From a bacterium (GTDB lineage Bacteria; UBP15; UBA6099; JAJRTR01), in contig JAJRTR010000050.1 in assembly GCA_024278215.1 (NCBI GenBank), positions 1 to 16,003 of the forward strand: DNA of 16,003 nt. The letters are read 5' to 3'. Positions 5,470 through 16,003 of the stretch are shown piece after piece. Below the pieces are notes generated by a model. That model was not told where the DNA came from and searched no databases. It was given only the letters and a program-made list of their open reading frames with translations. The first letter of the stretch is position 1; each line of letters starts with the position of its first letter. A program made the position numbers and the translations under genes.

Positions 5470-5530
5470 GGTAACACTTTAGACATCTGAAGCAAAGTCG
5501 TGGAATTCTTCACTTGGCTAAAGTGTTACC
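5470..5530 (+). repeat. 61-bp palindromic insert with 13-bp inverted ends, MITE-like or operator
   Basis: GGTAACACTTTAG (5470-5482) and CTAAAGTGTTACC (5518-5530) are perfect inverted copies around a 35-base spacer. Each side is flanked by the direct repeat ACAACA (5464-5469 and 5531-5536), like a target-site duplication. The element ends 13 bases before the ribosome binding site of the cyclase gene. It could be a very small non-autonomous insertion, or a hairpin or operator controlling the cyclase. The in-frame GTG at 5500 lies inside it and is not a credible start. Confidence 0.65.
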
Positions 5531-5556
5531 ACAACAGGGATTTTGAGGAGTCGCAC

Positions 5557-7134
5557 ATGAAAATCGTCAAGAATTTTGTTGTTCCCGTTATTCTCATTTC
5601 TCTTGCCGCGTCGGGAATCATATTCCTGCTTTTTAAGATGGGCACATTCGACGCGCTCGAGCTCAAGACACTCGATTTGCGTTTTATCACACGCGGCGAA
5701 CGTGAGTATAAGAACGAAAACGCGCGCGACGTGGTGAAAATCGTCGGGATAGACGCGAAAAGTATCGAGGAAGTGGGGCGGTGGCCGTGGCCGCGCGGCG
5801 TGATCGGAGAACTTGTCTACGGCATTTGCGGCGACGGGGGTATGGGTGTCGGTTCCGATTCTGATGCTGGTTGGGAAGACGCGGGAGATGACGAAGGTTG
5901 GGAAGACGCTCCGGACGACGAGGGCTGGGAGGACGTGCCCGGTGAGGAGTCTGTGGAAACAGGTGATGCTGCCGGTACGGCTGACGATAACGGCACGGCG
6001 CAGGCTGAAGAGGAGTCCACTGAGACCGCGAAACCTATCGGGAAACACAGGGTTGCGGGCATTGACATTCTTTTCGACCGCGCTGAGCGCGACTACAGCA
6101 AATACCTGTACCGCAAAGGTTCCATGATGGACCCCGCCCAGCAGGATGCGATGGCTGTCGAAGCGCTGGATCTCTGCGATTCCGTTGTCCAGATTTCGCT
6201 TTTGAAATGGGCAGATGAAGGTGTCAACGTCGGTCGCGGCGACCGGAGCGCGGAACATGTTATGAACGGGGCAAAAGTTATTTATAATACGCCGCTGCCG
6301 AATTTTCGGACTCCGAATTCATCATTGGGCACCGCGAATATGCAGCCCAGCAGATTCGACGAGCGCGTCCGCAAAGCGCGTATGTATTATAAGTTTGATA
6401 ATGAAGAAGGATATATATATCCATTCGCGCTGGCGTCACTGGCGTCGTTCCTTGGGGTCGACCAGAAAGATATAATCGTCAGGGAAGGCAAATACGTCAG
6501 GGTCGGCGAATATACGATTCCCGTCGATAAAAACGGCGACATATACATCAATTACCGTGGCAAGGAATACGAGCCGGATAAGGACGGTAACGTCAATAAG
6601 GACAACATACTTTCAGCGCTCGATGTGATGCAGACGCCTGAGATGATACCGATGATGATGCAGGGCAATTACATTTTCCTTGTCGGCGTGACGGACCCGG
6701 ACATAAAGGATATTTTTTACACGCCGTTCGCGCAGGCGCAATCGACATATCCGAACAATGCTATTCTCAACGGGATCGAGATACACAAAGCGATAATCGA
6801 CACGATTCTCCAGGGCGATTATCTTCACGACGTATCGCCCGCTACAGTGTTTATATTTATTTTCGCGGCGGCGGCGGTCGTCACAATTCTTACGCTGATC
6901 CGCCTGTGGCTCGGCGCGCTCGGCATGGTCGCGATCGGTGCGGCGCACTTCTATTACGCTGTCACGGCTTTCAATTCGTCGGGAGCGATCTACCCGGTAT
7001 TCTCGGTGATTATTGTGCTGCCGGTCTGTTCGCTGCGACGATTTTCTATCGCAATTTCGTCGTCGACAAAGAGAAAAACCGTGTTAAAAAAGCGTTCGGA
7101 AGTTATGTCGCGCCGCACGTGCTCGCCGAACTGA
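5557..7134 (+). CDS. CHASE2-domain sensor part of a class III cyclase (N-terminal piece of a frameshifted gene)
   Basis: This is the sensor half of a CHASE2-nucleotide cyclase, an inner-membrane receptor with an extracytoplasmic CHASE2 domain. Residues 7-26 form a first membrane helix, followed by the CHASE2 hallmark LELKTLDLRF. The domain runs to about residue 425 and includes VAGIDILFDRAE and INYRGK. Two membrane helices follow (about 429-449 and 453-473) and a third starts near 479. At about residue 490 the frame slips. The remaining residues, to the stop at 7134, lose family character, while the missing helix end and cyclase domain continue in the -1 frame. The ATG at 5557 is chosen because GAGGAG lies at 5545-5550 and a membrane helix follows. 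An unusual acidic insert with three nonapeptide repeats interrupts the CHASE2 domain. Confidence 0.85.
   Translation: MKIVKNFVVPVILISLAASGIIFLLFKMGTFDALELKTLDLRFITRGEREYKNENARDVVKIVGIDAKSIEEVGRWPWPRGVIGELVYGICGDGGMGVGSDSDAGWEDAGDDEGWEDAPDDEGWEDVPGEESVETGDAAGTADDNGTAQAEEESTETAKPIGKHRVAGIDILFDRAERDYSKYLYRKGSMMDPAQQDAMAVEALDLCDSVVQISLLKWADEGVNVGRGDRSAEHVMNGAKVIYNTPLPNFRTPNSSLGTANMQPSRFDERVRKARMYYKFDNEEGYIYPFALASLASFLGVDQKDIIVREGKYVRVGEYTIPVDKNGDIYINYRGKEYEPDKDGNVNKDNILSALDVMQTPEMIPMMMQGNYIFLVGVTDPDIKDIFYTPFAQAQSTYPNNAILNGIEIHKAIIDTILQGDYLHDVSPATVFIFIFAAAAVVTILTLIRLWLGALGMVAIGAAHFYYAVTAFNSSGAIYPVFSVIIVLPVCSLRRFSIAISSSTKRKTVLKKRSEVMSRRTCSPN
5869..5949 (+). repeat. Three tandem 27-bp units encoding an acidic nonapeptide repeat
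   Basis: The units 5869-5895, 5896-5922 and 5923-5949 encode GWEDAGDDE, GWEDAPDDE and GWEDVPGEE. They lie within a wider low-complexity acidic stretch (about 5845-6040) rich in Asp, Glu, Gly and Thr. The stretch sits inside the CHASE2 domain, between the ELVYGI helix and the VAGIDILF strand, so it would form an extracytoplasmic negatively charged loop. Copy number could vary between strains. Confidence 0.85.
7024..7028 (+). other. Single-base frameshift inside a cyclase transmembrane helix
   Basis: Up to GTC (7024-7026) the reading VIIVLPV is a good membrane helix. Re-entering one base back at CTG (7026-7028) gives LFAATIFYRNF, which continues the same helix into the cyclase linker VKKAFGSYVAPHVLAEL. 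One extra base here would restore a single 803-residue protein. No slippery heptamer is present, so programmed shifting is unlikely. A real deletion or an assembly error are the main options. Confidence 0.8.
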
Positions 7135-7967
7135 TGGACAACCCGGACAACCTGCAACTCGGCGGAAACCGCAGCAAGGTTTCGGTGCTGTTCTCCGACA
7201 TACGCGGCTTCACCACAATCAGCGAAAACCTCGAACCCGATACGCTCATCCAGGGTCTGAACCACTACCTTGAAAAGATGACGAACCTTGTGCTGGACAA
7301 CTCGGGCATGATCGACAAGTTCATCGGCGACGCCGTCATGGCTATATGGGGCGCGCCTGTCGCACACGAGGAAGATGCTAAGAAAGCGGTTGCTTCTGCT
7401 GTAAAAATGGAGATCGTGCTGAATGAAATCAGGCCGCGCGTGCTCGATCTCTGGAACAACAAAGAGGGACTGGACATCCGGATAGGGGTAGGCATAAACA
7501 CCGGCATAGCCACGCTTGGCAACATCGGCTCGGCGGGCAAACTCGACTACACTGTCATCGGTGACACGGTCAATCTCGCCTCACGGCTCGAAGGTCTCAC
7601 CAAGCAATACGGCGCTTTCACCATTATCAGCGAAACTACTTATGAAGAGGTGAAAGACGAGTTCGACTGCTGTCTGCTGGACAAAGTCATGGTCAAAGGG
7701 AAGGTGCTTCCTGTCGGTATCTACCAGGTATTCTGCGAGAAGGGCCGCCTGCCGGACGTGACGAGAAAGATGATCGAGCAGTTCGAGAGCGGCATGAATT
7801 ATTACCTTGATAAAGAATGGGAAAAAGCGATTGTTTCATTTAAGAAATCGCTGGCTGTCGTCGACGGACACAAGGCGTCGCTGCTGTACATCGACAGGTG
7901 CGGCCACTACGCGGAGAACCCGCCGCCCGACGACTGGGACGGATCGTTCGCCTGGAAGACGAAATAG
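7026..7967 (+). CDS. Class III adenylate/guanylate cyclase catalytic domain (C-terminal piece of the frameshifted gene)
   Basis: This is the catalytic half of the CHASE2 cyclase, which makes a 3',5'-cyclic nucleotide, probably cAMP. It contains the post-membrane linker FGSYVAPHVLAEL, the first metal motif LFSDIRGFTTIS, the substrate loop IDKFIGDAVMAIWGAP with the Lys usual in adenylate cyclases, GINTGIATLGNIGS, and DYTVIGDTVNLASRLE carrying the transition-state Asn and Arg. The last about 60 residues form the TPR-like tail ending WDGSF, which is common in CHASE2 cyclases. The catalytic residues look intact. It lacks its own credible start or ribosome binding site at 7026, and the upstream GTG at 6906 would give a non-family N-terminus. 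It may be silent unless the frameshift is an assembly error. The next gene starts 55 bases later. Confidence 0.85.
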   Translation: MFAATIFYRNFVVDKEKNRVKKAFGSYVAPHVLAELMDNPDNLQLGGNRSKVSVLFSDIRGFTTISENLEPDTLIQGLNHYLEKMTNLVLDNSGMIDKFIGDAVMAIWGAPVAHEEDAKKAVASAVKMEIVLNEIRPRVLDLWNNKEGLDIRIGVGINTGIATLGNIGSAGKLDYTVIGDTVNLASRLEGLTKQYGAFTIISETTYEEVKDEFDCCLLDKVMVKGKVLPVGIYQVFCEKGRLPDVTRKMIEQFESGMNYYLDKEWEKAIVSFKKSLAVVDGHKASLLYIDRCGHYAENPPPDDWDGSFAWKTK

Positions 7968-8022: not shown

Positions 8023-9831
8023 ATGATGATAGAACGCAACAGGTATCTTCTGGTGATTATAACATTAGTTGCGGTGGCGCTGGTTGCTGCGGGATGCGGC
8101 GGCGCGGGCGGCGGCTGGAGCAGCGGCGACGTCACACCGGCGAACACAAGCGCCGGCAGTGTGGCGGGCTATGTGTATCAGTCGGCGCAGGCCGCGAGCA
8201 GACAGGCTGCGGCAAGGCAGGTGCTCGTGCCGCTCGAAGGCGCTGTTGTTACAATCAACGGCCTATCCGACACTACGAACGAAAGCGGCTACTATCTGAT
8301 CGAAAACGTATCCGCCGGCACTTACAGCCTGGAGATAAGCGCGACAGGATTTACGACCGTAACTGTACAATCGGTTTCAGTCACCGGCGGGCAGACGGTA
8401 ACGGCTACAGCCGAGGATGACGGCACTTACGCACTGACACCGTCGGCCACGGCGAGTTTCGAGATAGATTCCTCGCCCCAGGGCGCGGCGATATACATAA
8501 ACGGCGCGGATACTGAAAGCGTTTCACCCAATACATTCGATATAATCGCCGGATCATATTCGATAAAGCTGATCAAATCCGGATACGAGAATTATGAGAC
8601 AACAGCCGCCGTTTCGTCGTCGGGCGGTTCGGTGACTTATGCGATGGCACTGAAAGTGTCGTCGATAACGGCAGTCACGACGAACCTTACAGTGACTTAC
8701 GGCGGGACGTCGGCACCGTCATATACATGCACCTACTCGGACAGTTCGACCGGCAGTTGCCCAACCCTCACATGGACTTCAGCCGACACTTCCGTCGCCA
8801 CCGTGGACTCGACAACGGGAACTGTAACGGGCATAGCAGGCGGCACGACAACAGTCACCGGCACAAGGTCTGAAAGCAACGCGAGTGTTTCCATACCTGT
8901 CACTGTTATATCGTCGGGGGACACTGTCAGTTCGGCCACCATAGACGCATCGGGCGTGAGCAACAACGCGCTGAGCCTCTCCGGCGGTGCCACAGCAACC
9001 TTCACGAGCGTTTGTGTTTACTCGTTGTCGGGAACCACTGCCTGTGACGGTTCATGCGTATACAGTTCGTCGGATACGACCGCTGGAACGATAACATCAG
9101 GCGGTGTGTTCACCTGCGCGGTGGCGGGTGGCAGCACGGATGTCAAACTAACCTGCGGTTCGACGGACAGCAACACGGTGGAAGTGTCGTGCGCTGTCGA
9201 AGACACGAATATCGAATTGAAGCTGTTCGGGGCACCCGACACCGACGGCGACGGTGAGGCGGACACGGCTTACGCGGACTCGATAACGCTCGATCCGGGC
9301 GATAGCCTGATCGTGCGGGTGAAGGTCGAGAACGGCGACGACCTTACCGGCTTCAGGACCGATCTCGAAATAAACGGTGGCTACATCTCGCCGAAGACAC
9401 AAACCGATTCGTCGAACTGTTCGGCCTACGACGATACCGCTTACGATTCGTCGTCTATCTGCATCACTAATTTCGGAACAGTTATCTCGCCGTCGAATCC
9501 TTTCTTCGGCAGCGACGACCTGGATACCATCAGTGCGGCGACCTATGTGAGCAACTCGACTGTCGAACCACTGACCTGCGTGGACACGGCGAAAAAAGCG
9601 AACCGGCTCGACTGCGCTGTCTCGACAAGGCAATCCGGCGATGTCCAGCCTTCCGCGGACGGTTCGGGCTACTTCGCGTATTTCCTGCTGGAGACAAGTT
9701 CGTCCATTGCGTCCGGCACGCAGACAACTGTTTCTATATCGTCGGATACCATGCAGATAATGACAACCGACGGTGTCGAGATTACAATCGGCACCAGCCA
9801 GGTTTCGGACCTGACGATTACGTTCAATTAG
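8023..9831 (+). CDS. Multidomain surface lipoprotein: PEGA, Ig-like domains and a cohesin-like C-terminus
   Basis: The 602-residue protein begins with a hydrophobic signal ending VAAGC, a plausible lipobox, followed by a Gly/Ser-rich tether. Domains in order: carboxypeptidase-regulatory-like (about 43-140, ESGYYLIENVSAGTYSLEI); PEGA (about 144-210, FEIDSSPQGAAIYINGAD); a Big_2-type Ig domain (about 214-296, WTSADTSVATVDSTTGTVTG); a second Ig-like domain rich in Cys (about 305-393); and a 200-residue C-terminal module (396-602) with a DTDGDGEAD loop, LDPGDSLIVRVKVENGDDLTGF and GSGYFAYFLLE. This last module reads like a divergent cohesin. GAGGTGG sits just before the ATG at 8023, with an adjacent second ATG at 8026. 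It is probably anchored in the outer membrane and could act as a docking protein. The cohesin call is tentative. Confidence 0.8.
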   Translation: MMIERNRYLLVIITLVAVALVAAGCGGAGGGWSSGDVTPANTSAGSVAGYVYQSAQAASRQAAARQVLVPLEGAVVTINGLSDTTNESGYYLIENVSAGTYSLEISATGFTTVTVQSVSVTGGQTVTATAEDDGTYALTPSATASFEIDSSPQGAAIYINGADTESVSPNTFDIIAGSYSIKLIKSGYENYETTAAVSSSGGSVTYAMALKVSSITAVTTNLTVTYGGTSAPSYTCTYSDSSTGSCPTLTWTSADTSVATVDSTTGTVTGIAGGTTTVTGTRSESNASVSIPVTVISSGDTVSSATIDASGVSNNALSLSGGATATFTSVCVYSLSGTTACDGSCVYSSSDTTAGTITSGGVFTCAVAGGSTDVKLTCGSTDSNTVEVSCAVEDTNIELKLFGAPDTDGDGEADTAYADSITLDPGDSLIVRVKVENGDDLTGFRTDLEINGGYISPKTQTDSSNCSAYDDTAYDSSSICITNFGTVISPSNPFFGSDDLDTISAATYVSNSTVEPLTCVDTAKKANRLDCAVSTRQSGDVQPSADGSGYFAYFLLETSSSIASGTQTTVSISSDTMQIMTTDGVEITIGTSQVSDLTITFN

Positions 9832-9892
9832 TTACAACAGAGCTTATTTCCCGGTCGCATCATCCGGGCGCCGGGCAACGGGAGTTAATATT

Positions 9893-10453
9893 ATGAAAAA
9901 CATTATATTCGTTTTGTTCTTCGCAGCAGCGGCAATATTTGTAATGCCTGCCGCGACGCATGCCGACGACGCGGGAAGTGATAAAACCCCTGCGGTTTCT
10001 TTATCAGGCACAGTGCGTGTCGAGAACGGAGAACGATACCTGCTAACCCTGATAAACGTCGAAAACATATCCGGCCTGAACTCGGCGCGCGTCGATGTCG
10101 TCTACGAAACAGAAGCGCTCGAACTGATAAACGTGTCGTCGGACACCGATATCGAAACAACCGGAAAGCAGAATTTCCTCGGCCCGAATGTCCTTCACGT
10201 CAACAGCATAAAAGAGAAAGGCGTTTCGGAATACGCCGTATCCAGAACATGGAAGAAAGGCGGCGCGCCCGCTGGAGCGTCAGGTTCGGGGGCGATAGGA
10301 CTGCTTGTCTTCCGCATACTTGACGATAAGGAAACACAACTCTCCATAAGAAGAAAAACGCTGCTGCTGTTGAGCGACGAAGAGACGCCGATACCGGAGA
10401 TGTCGCCGGAATTTAAGATAAACGGATTCACTTATAAGCTGGGCGGCGAGTGA
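9893..10453 (+). CDS. Small secreted cohesin-like domain protein
   Basis: The 186-residue product has a signal peptide with likely cleavage after THA at 22-24, then one beta-sandwich domain (about 34-165). Cohesin-like features are GTVRVENGERYLLTLINVENISGLNSARVDVVYETEALELINV near the start (a strand, then NISGLNSA and a YDxxxL-like turn) and GSGAIGLLVFRILD near the end, the position of the conserved GSG-IAxxxF strand. Cohesins bind dockerins, and the next gene carries a dockerin. GGGAG (9880-9884) precedes the ATG, and the gap from the lipoprotein gene is 61 bases, consistent with an operon. The length, about one cohesin plus signal, suits a free adaptor. It could instead be a related carbohydrate-binding-type sandwich. 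Confidence 0.75.
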   Translation: MKNIIFVLFFAAAAIFVMPAATHADDAGSDKTPAVSLSGTVRVENGERYLLTLINVENISGLNSARVDVVYETEALELINVSSDTDIETTGKQNFLGPNVLHVNSIKEKGVSEYAVSRTWKKGGAPAGASGSGAIGLLVFRILDDKETQLSIRRKTLLLLSDEETPIPEMSPEFKINGFTYKLGGE

Positions 10454-10544
10454 GAAAGTGTCAATCCTGTGGACTGGCGCAAACTTGTTTGTTCACAGTC
10501 GATAGCAACAGAGCGATGAATAAAAAAAGTGCAGGGAACAACTA

Positions 10545-13500
10545 ATGAAAAGAAAATATTGCCTGATAACGACAATAATGCTGTTCGCGACGATTTTATT
10601 CGTTCGGACAGTAAATGCGGACGAAAGCGGCTGGCGGCTGATAAGCATACCGTGCTACACGGCTGCCGGAGGTGCGGGCGCTTTATTGTCGCCGGTGCCC
10701 GAGTATGTGTACGAGATAGACGGCACAAGCAGCTATGCCCTTGCCGGCGAGGATATATCGCCCGGAAAGGCATACTGGATGTACTTCGACAGCGAGCCGC
10801 AGCCGCAGGCAGGCTGCATGACCATTTCCTACAGCAGCGTCGATGTCCGGCTCGATCCCGGCTGGAACCTTATCGGAAATCCTTTCATTTACGACGTGCC
10901 GCTCACCGGCGAATGGGACAATGTATACGAATATGATTTCACGACTGAAAAATATAAAAAAGTAAGTGTGTTGAAACCCTGGCACGGGTATTTTATCAAG
11001 GCCCCGGCATCGTGCGCCACGGGCTGCACGTTTACGATTGCCAACCCCGCGCCCGGCAGCATGGCGGGCCGCGCGGACGAACCGCATCTCGCTCGCGTCG
11101 TCGCCTGCCCGGCTTCCGGCGATGCAGACGGCAACAGCCTCGTCGACGCCAGCGATCTGTTCGCGATTAGTCAGAACTACGGAACATTGGTGACGAGTTC
11201 GACCTCTCTTTCGATCAGCCGCGCGGACACCGACGGCAACGGCATCATCGACGCCAGCGACCTGTTCGCGATCAGCCGCAATTATGGCGACACCTGCGAA
11301 GCGGGCATGACAAATGCTATCCCGGCGGCCGTCACGCAGAATGTCACCACTTCGCAGGACACGGCGCTTGACATCACACTTTCCGGTTCGGATGCGGACG
11401 GCGACACGCTTTCTTACGCAATCGTATCGAATCCGCTGCACGGCACTCTCACTACGACTTCAATACCGGCAGTCACATACACGCCGGAATCAGGCTACTA
11501 CGGACAGGACAGCTTCACTTTCAAAGTTAACGATGGCACGGCGGATTCTCTTTCCGCGGCGGTTACGATTACAATCGACCAGTCGAGTGTTCCTTCTGTG
11601 CCGGAAGTCACAGGCATCGAGGTCATACCCGATCCGAACCGGCGTTTCTCGTCGCTGCTCGTTAGCTGGGACCCGCCGTCCGACACTTCAGTCAACGCCT
11701 TCGACATCTACTGCAACGGCTCGCTCGTCAACACCTGCCCGGAGCAGCTCCAGTGCTTCAGCGGAATGGATTGCGACCCGAATATCGTATACACGTATTA
11801 CATCAATATCCCCAACGTTTCCGGCGCTCCCGCCGACCCCAGCAGTTTCTCGTGCGATGTGCAGATACAGGCTTTCACGATCGACAGCACGAATCTGATA
11901 GCGGCGCAGAGTCAGCTCACGGCGGCGGTCGCGGCGAGCACCTTCGCGCACACCGCCGATTCGCCTTACGCGGGCGGCACGACGAAAAAGGAAGGCACGC
12001 CCGAAGACTGCTCGGGCGTCCGCAACTCGCAACGTTCCGCAAACGCGGGCGGGTCGACTGTCGTCCTGCCCAACGCGCGCATCGAGGCATGGCGCAAGGA
12101 AAGTTCGTCCGAGAGCCCCAACGGGACACTTGTCGCGACCGTCTACTCGAACGACCAGGGCTACTACGAGTTCTCAAGTCTCGATCCCGGCTACTACAAC
12201 TTCATCGCTTTCCATGATAACGGAACCACACAGACCGACGACGATGTGTACAGTATGCTCGAGAGCATCAACATACAGCCTTCTCCGTTCAATGAAGGCG
12301 GATTCAACGATCTGGGTGACATGAAACTCGAAGAGACCGGAAGCATATACGGAAAGATCAAACTTGCGCTCGACGCGACCGGAGGAAACCTGCTGGCGAC
12401 ACCCGACGACACTTATATGGGCATCGACGTCTATATACCCGGCACGTCGTTCACTGCGAAAACCAACAGGTCCGGCGAATTCTACATCCTCTATCTGCCG
12501 CCCGCGACATATTCCATCGTGGCCGTAGCAGACAACTACGCGCTCGCACAGCGTGACGACATAAAAGTCGAGAGCAAACAGATAACAACCGTCACGCCCG
12601 ACCTGGTGCTGCTCTCGTCCATCGGCAGCGTCGTCGGAACCGCCACATTCGCGGATTCGAGCAACGACGGCGACGCATCCGTCGCGCTCCAGAAAGACGA
12701 CGACACTTCGGTCGTGAAAACCGTCAGCACACTCACTGACGGCACTTTCACTTTCACTGGGCTCGCCACCGGCACCTATACACTGACGATCAATCGCTAC
12801 GGCTGGCAGGCATACACACAAACATCCGTGAACGTGCTCAGCAACACGACCACCGACCTCGGCACCATCGGCCCCATCGCGCGCATCCCGGGTCCTTCGA
12901 TCAGCACGATAAGCCCGACTTCCGGCGACAACGACTCCGCCACCACTATAACCATCACCGGCTCGGAATTCGCCACGGGTACACTATTCTACATCGAAAA
13001 AGGACTGCTTGAAGCGCAACTCGAATCAATCACTTATGTTTCTGAAACAGAAATGACAGCCTCGGTTCCGGCAGGCTACGACTGGGGCATCTACGATATA
13101 AAAGCGGTCAACCCGGACACGCAATCGGTCACACTGAGCGAAGTTTTCAGCGTGACACTCCCCGCGCCGACGGTCACCTCGATATCGCCCGCGGAAATGG
13201 ACAACAGCGTTGCGGAGGAAGCGACGATAACCGGCACCGGCTTCGTCGACGGCGCGTCGGTGCGCATCGGCACAACACTGACAAGCAATACAACGGTAGG
13301 CAACGGCGGCGCGTCGATTACAACCACTATCCCTGCGGGAATTACCGCGGGCGTTTATTCTGTCGAAGTGACCAACCCCGACTCCGCCGCGCGCTCGGCA
13401 ACCCTCTCCACGGCGTTTACATCGAAGGCCCTTTTCCTGATCGAGCCGAGCCCCTACACGGAGGGGACGCTCAGCCTCGCGAAGTCCGCCACGATGACAT

Positions 13501-16003
13501 TCACCGCGACATGCAGTTTCACAGATGGAACCAACACCACGCAGACGGACTGCTCGAGCGATGTCCAGTGGTATTCGACGAACCCGGACGCTGGAACTAT
13601 CACACTTACAGGCGGCGCGTTCACCGCCGTCGCGGCAGGCACGACGATTGTTACGGCACAGCGCGGCACAGTCTCCAGCTCGGAACTCGATATCGCAGTC
13701 TACGATCCGGCAAATATATTCCTCGACAGCGGGCAGCGAATTTATTACACGAAAGACCACCAGTCGGCTTCCGTATCCGGCGACTTCGACGGCGATGGCT
13801 ACATGGATATGATGTCGTCCAACTCCGGTTACGGACGCGCATATCTCAACAACGGCAGCGGAACGCTAGCGCATGACGGCACATCGAACGCCTGCTCCGT
13901 GTCGGAAGGGTTCTCCGCGCTCGACGCGGCCGACTTCGACGGCGACGGCGACCTGGATGTCGTATGCCTGTGGGACTCAGGCGGCTACGGGTCCGGCATA
14001 CTCGGCAACAACGGCGATACGAGCGACTGGATCGGCGGTCTCGGCGGCTACGCCAACGGTGTGCAGGCGACGTCGATAGTTGCCGCCGACTTCAACATGG
14101 ACGGCAGGCCCGACTGGGCTGTGGGCAATCCGGACGGTGGTAATGAAGTGCTGTTTGTCAACAGTGACGGCACGTCCACATCCTCGGGACAATCGCTCGG
14201 CTCATACAACACCGGCTGGCTCGCCGCGGGCGACGTAGACGGCGACGGCGACAACGACCTCGTCGAAGGCATCGCCAATGGCGGCAACCGCGTGTGGATA
14301 AACAACGGCAGCGGCTCGTTCACCGACAGCGGCCAGTCGCTCGGCAGCGGCATGACTATGTTCGTGCTACTGTCCGACTTCGACGGCGACGGCGACCTCG
14401 ACATGTTCGACGGCACAGGTAGTTACGAGGGCGACCCCGCCGAGGCCGACACGATATGGCTCAACGACGGCAGCGGAACCTTCACCGCGGGCAGCCAGTC
14501 TTTCACAGCTACCCTGACTTCCTCCGCGGCGGCTGTGGATGTCGATAACGACGGCGATTACGACCTCATTGTCGGCGTCGCAAAAGGCGGCGGCGACATT
14601 CTCTATCTCAACGACGGCAGCGCGAACTTCACCGACAGCGGCCAGTCGTTCGATCCGTCATACACGAACAGCATCGGAATCGGCGACTTCAACGGCGACA
14701 ACGACGTTGACTTCGCCGCCGCCGCGCTCTCCGGGATTGTTGTATACTATGGAGGAAACGGCGGGGTGCCCGCCAACACGCCGCCGCAGGCACCGTCTTC
14801 ACTTTCCGCTTCCGCCTCCGACGAAGATGGCGACGAGCTTTATAACGACGTCACCCTCACCTGGAACTCAGGCTCAGACTACGAAACACCGGACGCGCTA
14901 CTAACTTACAATCTGAACATATACAGGTCCGACGGCTTCACTATCAGTTCGACAAATCACAGGTTCGGTCCAGGCCTCATGGGACACTCGATGACTGTTT
15001 CTTTGAAAAACCTTCCGGATGGCTATTACTCCTGGCGTGTGCAGACGGTCGATTCGGCATATAAAACATCGGAATGGTCTGTGCCCTCGAACTTCACAAC
15101 CGGCATGATATTAGTCGAAAAAACCGGGCAGTTCAGCAGCAGCGATACTGGCGCGTCGCTCGCCGCCGACCTCGACGCGGACGGCGACGTCGACGTGATC
15201 GAGGCCCGCGACGCTACCGGCGGCGGACTGAATGTCGTGTGGACAAACGACGGCTCCGGCTCTTTCTCCGAATACTCTTCATTCGGTTCGGCGGACACCG
15301 GCGCGCTCGTCGCGGCGGACATAGACGGCGACGGCGACCCCGCCGCCGTCGAAGCCGCAAACGGAGACGGCACAATCTGGCTGAATAACGGCTCCGGCAC
15401 CTTCACCGACAGCGGCGAGGACATTGGAAGTTACGCCAACGACATCATATTATTCGACGCGGACAACGACGGCGACCTGGACCTGCTCACTGTCAACTCC
15501 GGCTCGGAATCTTTGCTTTACAGAAACGACGGCACCGGCGCTTTCAGTGTTTTCGCGTCTCTCGGCTCACACAGCGCTTATGCCGCGGACGCCGCGGACG
15601 TGACCGGCGACGGCCTGACCGATGTGGCGTTAGCCGCAGGCACTGAAGGTATGTTGCTTTATGGAAACGGCGGCGACGGCTCATTCTCTCTTATCGACGA
15701 TTACTCGGGCGGCGGTGCCGACATCAATAATGTAGTCATTGCCGATATTACCGGCGACGGATATTCGGATTACATTATTTCCGACGAAGATGATTACGTG
15801 AGAGAACTCACGGGTAAAGGCTATGTAACAAGCTTCCCCTGGTATTCGACAGCTTACGGGATTTCGCCTACAACTACTGTTGCCAGGCACATTGCAACGG
15901 TGGACATCGATGTTGACGGCGACACGGACATCGTAGTCTTCAACTACAACCAGTCGCTGCAGGTGTTGCTGTTCGACCATTACGACTCCGGAACATCGTA
16001 TCC
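10545..16003 (+). CDS. Very large secreted dockerin / FG-GAP repeat surface protein (3' end beyond the window)
   Basis: I read one frame open from the ATG at 10545 to the window edge: 1819 codons and no stop. A signal peptide (1-25, cleavage after VNA) leads into a domain with two GW-LI motifs (28-185), then a type I dockerin (192-251) with two calcium loops DADGNSLVDASD and DTDGNGIIDASD. Then come a cadherin-like/Big_9 domain (257-347), an Fn3-like domain (348-462), three carboxypeptidase-regulatory-like domains (506-780), two IPT/TIG domains (782-962) and a Big_2 domain (963-1055). Seven FG-GAP repeats (1070-1407), an Fn3-like domain (1411-1523) and at least six more FG-GAP repeats follow. 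AGGGA (10534-10538) precedes the ATG, 91 bases after the cohesin-like gene. The role is probably adhesion or matrix assembly at the cell surface. No catalytic domain was seen. Confidence 0.93.
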   Translation, partial: MKRKYCLITTIMLFATILFVRTVNADESGWRLISIPCYTAAGGAGALLSPVPEYVYEIDGTSSYALAGEDISPGKAYWMYFDSEPQPQAGCMTISYSSVDVRLDPGWNLIGNPFIYDVPLTGEWDNVYEYDFTTEKYKKVSVLKPWHGYFIKAPASCATGCTFTIANPAPGSMAGRADEPHLARVVACPASGDADGNSLVDASDLFAISQNYGTLVTSSTSLSISRADTDGNGIIDASDLFAISRNYGDTCEAGMTNAIPAAVTQNVTTSQDTALDITLSGSDADGDTLSYAIVSNPLHGTLTTTSIPAVTYTPESGYYGQDSFTFKVNDGTADSLSAAVTITIDQSSVPSVPEVTGIEVIPDPNRRFSSLLVSWDPPSDTSVNAFDIYCNGSLVNTCPEQLQCFSGMDCDPNIVYTYYINIPNVSGAPADPSSFSCDVQIQAFTIDSTNLIAAQSQLTAAVAASTFAHTADSPYAGGTTKKEGTPEDCSGVRNSQRSANAGGSTVVLPNARIEAWRKESSSESPNGTLVATVYSNDQGYYEFSSLDPGYYNFIAFHDNGTTQTDDDVYSMLESINIQPSPFNEGGFNDLGDMKLEETGSIYGKIKLALDATGGNLLATPDDTYMGIDVYIPGTSFTAKTNRSGEFYILYLPPATYSIVAVADNYALAQRDDIKVESKQITTVTPDLVLLSSIGSVVGTATFADSSNDGDASVALQKDDDTSVVKTVSTLTDGTFTFTGLATGTYTLTINRYGWQAYTQTSVNVLSNTTTDLGTIGPIARIPGPSISTISPTSGDNDSATTITITGSEFATGTLFYIEKGLLEAQLESITYVSETEMTASVPAGYDWGIYDIKAVNPDTQSVTLSEVFSVTLPAPTVTSISPAEMDNSVAEEATITGTGFVDGASVRIGTTLTSNTTVGNGGASITTTIPAGITAGVYSVEVTNPDSAARSATLSTAFTSKALFLIEPSPYTEGTLSLAKSATMTFTATCSFTDGTNTTQTDCSSDVQWYSTNPDAGTITLTGGAFTAVAAGTTIVTAQRGTVSSSELDIAVYDPANIFLDSGQRIYYTKDHQSASVSGDFDGDGYMDMMSSNSGYGRAYLNNGSGTLAHDGTSNACSVSEGFSALDAADFDGDGDLDVVCLWDSGGYGSGILGNNGDTSDWIGGLGGYANGVQATSIVAADFNMDGRPDWAVGNPDGGNEVLFVNSDGTSTSSGQSLGSYNTGWLAAGDVDGDGDNDLVEGIANGGNRVWINNGSGSFTDSGQSLGSGMTMFVLLSDFDGDGDLDMFDGTGSYEGDPAEADTIWLNDGSGTFTAGSQSFTATLTSSAAAVDVDNDGDYDLIVGVAKGGGDILYLNDGSANFTDSGQSFDPSYTNSIGIGDFNGDNDVDFAAAALSGIVVYYGGNGGVPANTPPQAPSSLSASASDEDGDELYNDVTLTWNSGSDYETPDALLTYNLNIYRSDGFTISSTNHRFGPGLMGHSMTVSLKNLPDGYYSWRVQTVDSAYKTSEWSVPSNFTTGMILVEKTGQFSSSDTGASLAADLDADGDVDVIEARDATGGGLNVVWTNDGSGSFSEYSSFGSADTGALVAADIDGDGDPAAVEAANGDGTIWLNNGSGTFTDSGEDIGSYANDIILFDADNDGDLDLLTVNSGSESLLYRNDGTGAFSVFASLGSHSAYAADAADVTGDGLTDVALAAGTEGMLLYGNGGDGSFSLIDDYSGGGADINNVVIADITGDGYSDYIISDEDDYVRELTGKGYVTSFPWYSTAYGISPTTTVARHIATVDIDVDGDTDIVVFNYNQSLQVLLFDHYDSGTSY
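11145..11275 (+). repeat. Near-identical DNA duplication of the two dockerin calcium repeats
   Basis: The 26 bases at 11145-11170 and at 11250-11275 match at 24 positions and encode DASDLFAIS twice, offset by 105 bases (35 codons). Only synonymous differences are seen in this core. Both halves keep Ala-Ser at the positions that usually set cohesin specificity, so the dockerin is internally symmetric. Confidence 0.85.
13782..14760 (+). repeat. First FG-GAP/VCBS block, seven repeats
   Basis: Calcium-loop motifs of the type DFDGDGDLD begin at 13782, 13932, 14088, 14232, 14376, 14538 and 14685, spaced 144-162 bases (48-54 residues). Each is followed by a hydrophobic strand and, in most repeats, a LNNGSGTF- or NDGSGTF-like turn. 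Seven repeats match a complete seven-bladed integrin-type propeller. Repeats 3 and 7 have altered loops (DFNMDGRPD, DFNGDNDVD). Confidence 0.9.
15168..16003 (+). repeat. Second FG-GAP/VCBS block, at least six repeats
   Basis: Calcium-loop motifs begin at 15168, 15318, 15456, 15597, 15744 and 15903, spaced 138-159 bases. The block follows an Fn3-like domain and is cut by the window edge within its sixth repeat. A seventh repeat just outside would complete a second propeller. Repeat 9 overall has lost its last acidic positions (DIDGDGDPA). Confidence 0.88.

Follow-up and report, generated by a model that had tools for sequence, protein, structure and literature searches.

A putative lipoprotein-borne cohesin next to a giant dockerin protein suggests enzyme-free tethering in an uncultivated bacterium

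Three consecutive genes at one end of the window, as we call the whole 16,003-nucleotide stretch of DNA analyzed here, raise the question of whether a giant secreted protein could be held at the cell envelope by a lipoprotein encoded in the same cluster, through cohesin-dockerin binding outside any cellulosome. The window spans all of contig C20 in a draft genome of 4.55 Mb (G000, 95% complete), from an order with only seven genomes in the collection. From position 8023 onwards, the plus strand encodes a lipoprotein, a small secreted protein, and a giant secreted open reading frame, with the same boundaries as in the initial annotation (8023-9831, 9893-10453, and 10545 to the contig end at 16003). 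The intergenic gaps are 61 nt and 91 nt, a ribosome-binding-like sequence lies upstream of every start, and terminator-like sites are not more common in the cluster than in shuffled sequences, so that the three genes likely form one operon. ExbB- and TonB-like genes, present in other genomes of the order, suggest a diderm envelope for the host. In the same window, a CHASE2-adenylate cyclase gene (5500-7967) is found in two overlapping frames, 5500-7134 with CHASE2 and 6906-7967 with the cyclase domain, split by an apparent frameshift near 7030-7060 that is either a real mutation or an assembly error.

The features of the cluster are as follows:

8023..9831, plus strand: lipoprotein gene, 602 aa, with signal peptide, lipobox, tether, and domains
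8095..8097, plus strand: codon of the lipobox cysteine (residue 25), then GGAGGG, read from the sequence
8230..8409, plus strand: CarboxypepD_reg domain of the lipoprotein (PF13620, E 4.4e-11)
8461..8616, plus strand: PEGA domain of the lipoprotein (PF08308, E 6.7e-13)
8656..8889, plus strand: first Big_2 domain of the lipoprotein (PF02368, E 4.9e-10)
9196..9828, plus strand: putative C-terminal cohesin-like domain of the lipoprotein, aa 392-602 (profile, hhalign, homologue)
9893..10453, plus strand: secreted protein with a predicted single cohesin, 186 aa, Sec signal peptide, no anchor seen
9995..10399, plus strand: predicted cohesin domain of this middle protein, aa 35-169 (32.9 bits; PDB type II cohesins)
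10545..16003, plus strand: giant secreted protein of at least 1819 aa, running off the contig
11118..11294, plus strand: type I dockerin of the giant protein, aa 192-250, whose two calcium-binding repeats, DADGNSLVDASDLFAISQNYG and DTDGNGIIDASDLFAISRNYG, are nearly identical
13674..15938, plus strand: FG-GAP repeats of the giant protein (PF13517, E 5e-54)

Dockerin and cohesin domains of the three proteins

The giant protein consists of a signal peptide and an N-terminal domain followed by dockerin, Big_9, CarboxypepD_reg, TIG, Big_2, and FG-GAP domains. Both calcium loops of the dockerin, DADGNSLVDASD and DTDGNGIIDASD, match DxDxN....DxxD and are complete with respect to D-x-D/N-x-D/N....D/N-x-x-D, and the two repeats are identical at 16 of 22 positions. 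The score against PF00404 is 25.6 bits in the genome search, above the cut-off of 22.9, and 17.8 bits, below it, in the scan of the full-length protein. On the strength of its intact calcium loops, we assign the domain to the type I dockerins. As the window is the whole contig, the C-terminus of this protein is missing, and the part beyond the contig end may carry an anchor of its own. Very large FG-GAP proteins are also seen on contigs C151, C43, and C201 of the same genome (open frames of 3842, 2793, 2029, and 1400 aa), which has 129 FG-GAP_3 matches overall.

The middle protein is, as judged by comparison with known domains, a secreted single cohesin. A single-sequence search of the PDB returned four matches, all to type II cohesins, with a best E-value of 0.0026, and the closest solved relatives are the SdbA type II cohesins. 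On an independent profile, for which 30 cohesins from other genomes with Pfam E-values of at most 1e-5 were used, it scores 32.9 bits, compared to 8.4 for the best of 2000 shuffles. The hhalign comparison with cohesin gives 93%, and at most 2.9% for shuffles. The match to Pfam PF00963 is under the cut-off of 24.1 (16 bits, E 0.015), and a homologue search yielded one weak match only. The AlphaFold2 model obtained without homologues is all-beta, with a mean pLDDT of 58 and a pTM of 0.55; searching with this low-confidence model, Foldseek gave mostly type II cohesins as top matches, with E-values above 1e-3.

The lipoprotein begins with a signal peptide, MMIERNRYLLVIITLVAVALVAAGC, ending at a lipobox cysteine (VAAGC, Cys25), both identified by inspection like the signal peptides of the other two proteins, and continues with a glycine-rich tether, CarboxypepD_reg, PEGA, two Big_2 stretches, and the cohesin-like domain, which displays an insertion of about 60 aa relative to the cohesin profile. 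This last domain scores 13.9 bits on the independent profile (best of 2000 shuffles, 12.5). In hhalign it reaches 77% against cohesin, compared to at most 6.2% for shuffles and at most 5.1% for nine other domains of the same proteins. Its AlphaFold2 model, made without homologues, has a pLDDT of 37, too low to be of use. Used alone as query, the domain found no reliable homologue among 290 genomes, and a scan of named-genome contigs with the lipoprotein gave only two distant matches, both to its N-terminal part. Taken together, the comparisons modestly support a cohesin-like C-terminus, related to cohesins beyond chance.

The initial annotation had placed a type I dockerin in the third gene and cohesin-like domains in the two genes before it, one in the lipoprotein and one in a small free protein. 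The dockerin is borne out by its loops and the genome search, and the small free cohesin by the agreement of the PDB search, the shuffled-profile test, and hhalign, with a sub-threshold Pfam score. For the lipoprotein C-terminus, hhalign, the shuffles, and a homologue within the order (see below) speak for the assignment, but the Pfam search with PF00963 gave no match in a scan up to E 1.

Lipoprotein cohesins beside dockerin genes

In another family of the order, genome G002 encodes a lipoprotein 37% identical to that of the window and similar through the N-terminal domains, with a C-terminus that matches the Pfam cohesin family at 40.5 bits, over the cut-off. The lipoprotein gene is followed directly, in the same orientation and with no small cohesin in between, by the gene for a secreted protein that combines RCC1 repeats with an N-terminal dockerin. 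Pairwise BLASTP of the window domains against the G002 cohesin gave no match, as expected at such divergence. In a further family (f2), lipoprotein homologues adjoin dockerin-like proteins but end, as judged by sequence motifs, in TolB-type propellers, which means that adjacency of lipoprotein and dockerin does not always reflect cohesin tethering.

At the f2 loci L043, L044, L046, and L048 (genomes G004, G003, and G001), where TolB/PD40-like propellers take the place of the cohesin, the adjoining genes encode small proteins that look secreted and contain several dockerin or EF-hand loops, a variant of the pairing. A further protein conserved in the order, about 730-1000 aa long, terminates in a cohesin-like domain (loci L083, L097, L098, L099, and L102). 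Its gene cluster, likewise conserved, also includes a TonB-like gene and genes for a small SLH-like protein and a receptor-like sensor; a dockerin was not seen nearby.

Outside the order, we surveyed the surroundings of cohesin domains in other lineages, 80 regions in all. Genome G232 has four lipoproteins of about 190 aa consisting of a lipobox and one cohesin, the genes of which lie at most 18 nt from, or overlap, genes for secreted proteins with C-terminal dockerins; these partners carry RCC1, BNR-like propeller, VWA, or PKD domains. In G379, one lipoprotein cohesin gene lies within the same distance of a dockerin gene, beside an M6-peptidase-like protein. G361 closely follows the plan of the window: 5 nt after the gene for a giant FG-GAP, fn3, and PEGA protein with a C-terminal dockerin lies the gene for a lipoprotein that combines CarboxypepD_reg with a cohesin scoring above the Pfam cut-off (26.7 bits). 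Within the surveyed regions, 6 of 16 lipoprotein cohesins have a dockerin gene next to them. The corresponding counts are 5 of 75 for other cohesins (p 0.003), 1 of 26 for other lipoproteins (p 0.008), and 8 of 488 for other open reading frames (p 9e-7); these p-values overstate independence, since four of the six adjacent pairs come from one genome.

The pairing is seen in three lineages outside the order, in addition to G002 and the window. As the pairing recurs in unrelated bacteria, surface tethering by a cohesin-dockerin plug and socket, with no cellulose-degrading enzyme involved, may be common. Genome G232 has at least eight paralogous lipoprotein cohesins (loci L114-L120 and L125), several with their own dockerin neighbor, and these form a natural set for studying the orthogonality of cohesin-dockerin pairs.

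Possible partners of the dockerin

We consider it probable that the lipoprotein tethers the giant protein to the envelope by calcium-dependent cohesin-dockerin binding, in a one-to-one, enzyme-free arrangement. The lipoprotein would be lipidated at Cys25 and stay in the envelope, with the glycine-rich, CarboxypepD_reg, PEGA, and Big_2 segments holding out its cohesin-like domain. The giant FG-GAP protein would be exported by its signal peptide, and its N-terminal dockerin would fold on calcium and dock into the lipoprotein cohesin, keeping the protein at the cell. The middle protein could be a free copy of the socket that escorts or caps the dockerin, or that frees the giant protein by competition. 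We infer the binding, its calcium dependence, the surface rather than periplasmic location, and the role of the middle protein. The proposal in the initial annotation that the lipoprotein cohesin holds the giant protein has gained comparative support, from G002 and from gene neighbors in three other families, and its binding step keeps the standing of an inference; the adaptor role that it suggested for the small protein is conjectural.

An alternative, to which we give a minor share of the probability, is that the partner of the giant protein is the small free cohesin, acting as chaperone, cap, or cross-linker, and that the lipoprotein domain has diverged towards another ligand. Of the two, the middle protein gives much the stronger cohesin match (32.9 versus 13.9 bits, and 93 versus 77% in hhalign), and its gene directly precedes that of the giant protein. 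In a quick tree of 146 cohesins with few resolved forks, the lipoprotein domain also has the longer branch (2.2, compared to 1.12 for the middle cohesin). However, in G002 the lipoprotein cohesin adjoins the dockerin gene with no small cohesin between them, and in G232, G379, and G361 the neighbor of the dockerin is again a lipoprotein cohesin. The two cohesin domains of the window pair with each other in this poorly resolved tree (93, unstarred), a pattern compatible with duplication within the operon; the lipoprotein cohesins paired with dockerins do not form one clade in it.

Slightly less likely still is that the cohesin-like domains and the dockerin of the window do not bind each other, being ordinary building blocks of surface proteins, as beta-sandwich and calcium-loop domains, or having partners encoded elsewhere. 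The genome encodes six dockerin proteins in all, five of them outside the window, and further cohesin-like genes are scattered in it; in the regions read, dockerin genes of the order mostly lack a cohesin neighbor, and the chance of a dockerin and a cohesin falling within two genes of each other in this genome alone is about 0.036. Against this, cohesin-dockerin adjacency is repeated in independent lineages, and the specificity residues of the window dockerin differ from those of four other dockerins of the same genome. These four of the five have an ALDLAxMKP-like recognition helix, with AL and KP, KK, KG, or KS at positions 10, 11, 17, and 18, where the window dockerin has AS/SQ and AS/SR. 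Such distinct residues would be expected of a dedicated partner and are not proof of one. A lysine at position 17, found order-wide and absent in the window, was considered as a mark of lipoprotein-coupled dockerins and dropped as a general signature because most dockerins outside the order also lack it. At another locus of this genome (L039 1012-4836, contig C54), one chain combines an N-terminal dockerin and a cohesin, followed by fn3 repeats, and could polymerize or bridge.

Membership in a cellulosome-like multi-enzyme scaffold, which might be suspected as cohesin and dockerin domains define cellulosomes and as a cellulosome-like complex built around a multi-cohesin scaffoldin occurs in Cloacimonadota (PMC8542988), is highly improbable and was rejected, in line with the non-cellulosomal reading of the initial annotation: a profile search of the genome found no multi-cohesin protein, only single and sub-threshold cohesin matches, and a glycoside hydrolase domain was recognized on none of its six dockerin proteins.

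Beyond tethering of the giant protein by the lipoprotein in this operon, a more tentative generalization, which we hold to be plausible but rather less than an even bet, is that diderm candidate phyla use operons of a lipoprotein cohesin and a dockerin cargo as a general module for surface display. Such operons would have come together repeatedly in different lineages, several orthogonal pairs would coexist in one cell (as in G232), and most of the cargo would be beta-propellers. In the window, duplication next to the anchor would have added a soluble cohesin that serves as decoy or escort.

Comparison with known systems

Cohesins and dockerins are widespread outside cellulosomes, where their roles are largely open; the standard survey, cited in the work on archaeal pairs, is that of Peer et al. 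(2009). Noncellulosomal cohesin-dockerin pairs are known. Searches of open papers for lipoprotein-borne cohesins paired with dockerins yielded, as judged by titles and abstracts, only engineered display and other unrelated uses, and we did not find a lipoprotein-anchored one-to-one operon described in them. The anchoring of giant surface proteins in diderms is commonly attributed to sortases, type 9 secretion, or autotransporters. The lipoprotein-cohesin/dockerin gene pairs provide a concrete and cheaply testable one-to-one hypothesis for a reversible, calcium-dependent anchoring of such proteins and, if it is true, new orthogonal binding pairs for biotechnology.

Among described systems, Ca. 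Stygibacter (Cloacimonadota) has a multi-cohesin scaffoldin of 3,755 aa and dockerin-bearing glycoside hydrolase and peptidase enzymes (PMC8542988), and resembles the window in that an uncultivated candidate phylum encodes both cohesin and dockerin proteins. ANME archaea, which are not cellulose-degrading, encode many cohesin and dockerin proteins, including some with one dockerin and up to five cohesins, and archaeal cohesin-dockerin pairs bind specifically (PMC9012536). In comparison, the cohesin proteins of the window have one predicted cohesin each, and the anchor lipoprotein is encoded beside the cargo gene. In Archaeoglobus fulgidus, AfuCoh76 and AfuDoc75 show strong noncellulosomal cohesin-dockerin binding (PMC9705933). 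The window resembles this system in its proposed one-to-one pair outside cellulosomes, but would differ in its lipoprotein anchor and FG-GAP cargo. To our knowledge, neither a bacterial lipoprotein anchor nor FG-GAP cargo accompanies the A. fulgidus pair. The clostridial SdbA and OlpB scaffoldins offer a further parallel, as an anchored type II cohesin displays a dockerin protein at the cell. They involve SLH anchoring in the Gram-positive wall, X-dockerin partners, and enzymes, whereas the system proposed here would combine a lipid anchor with a plain dockerin and no enzymes.
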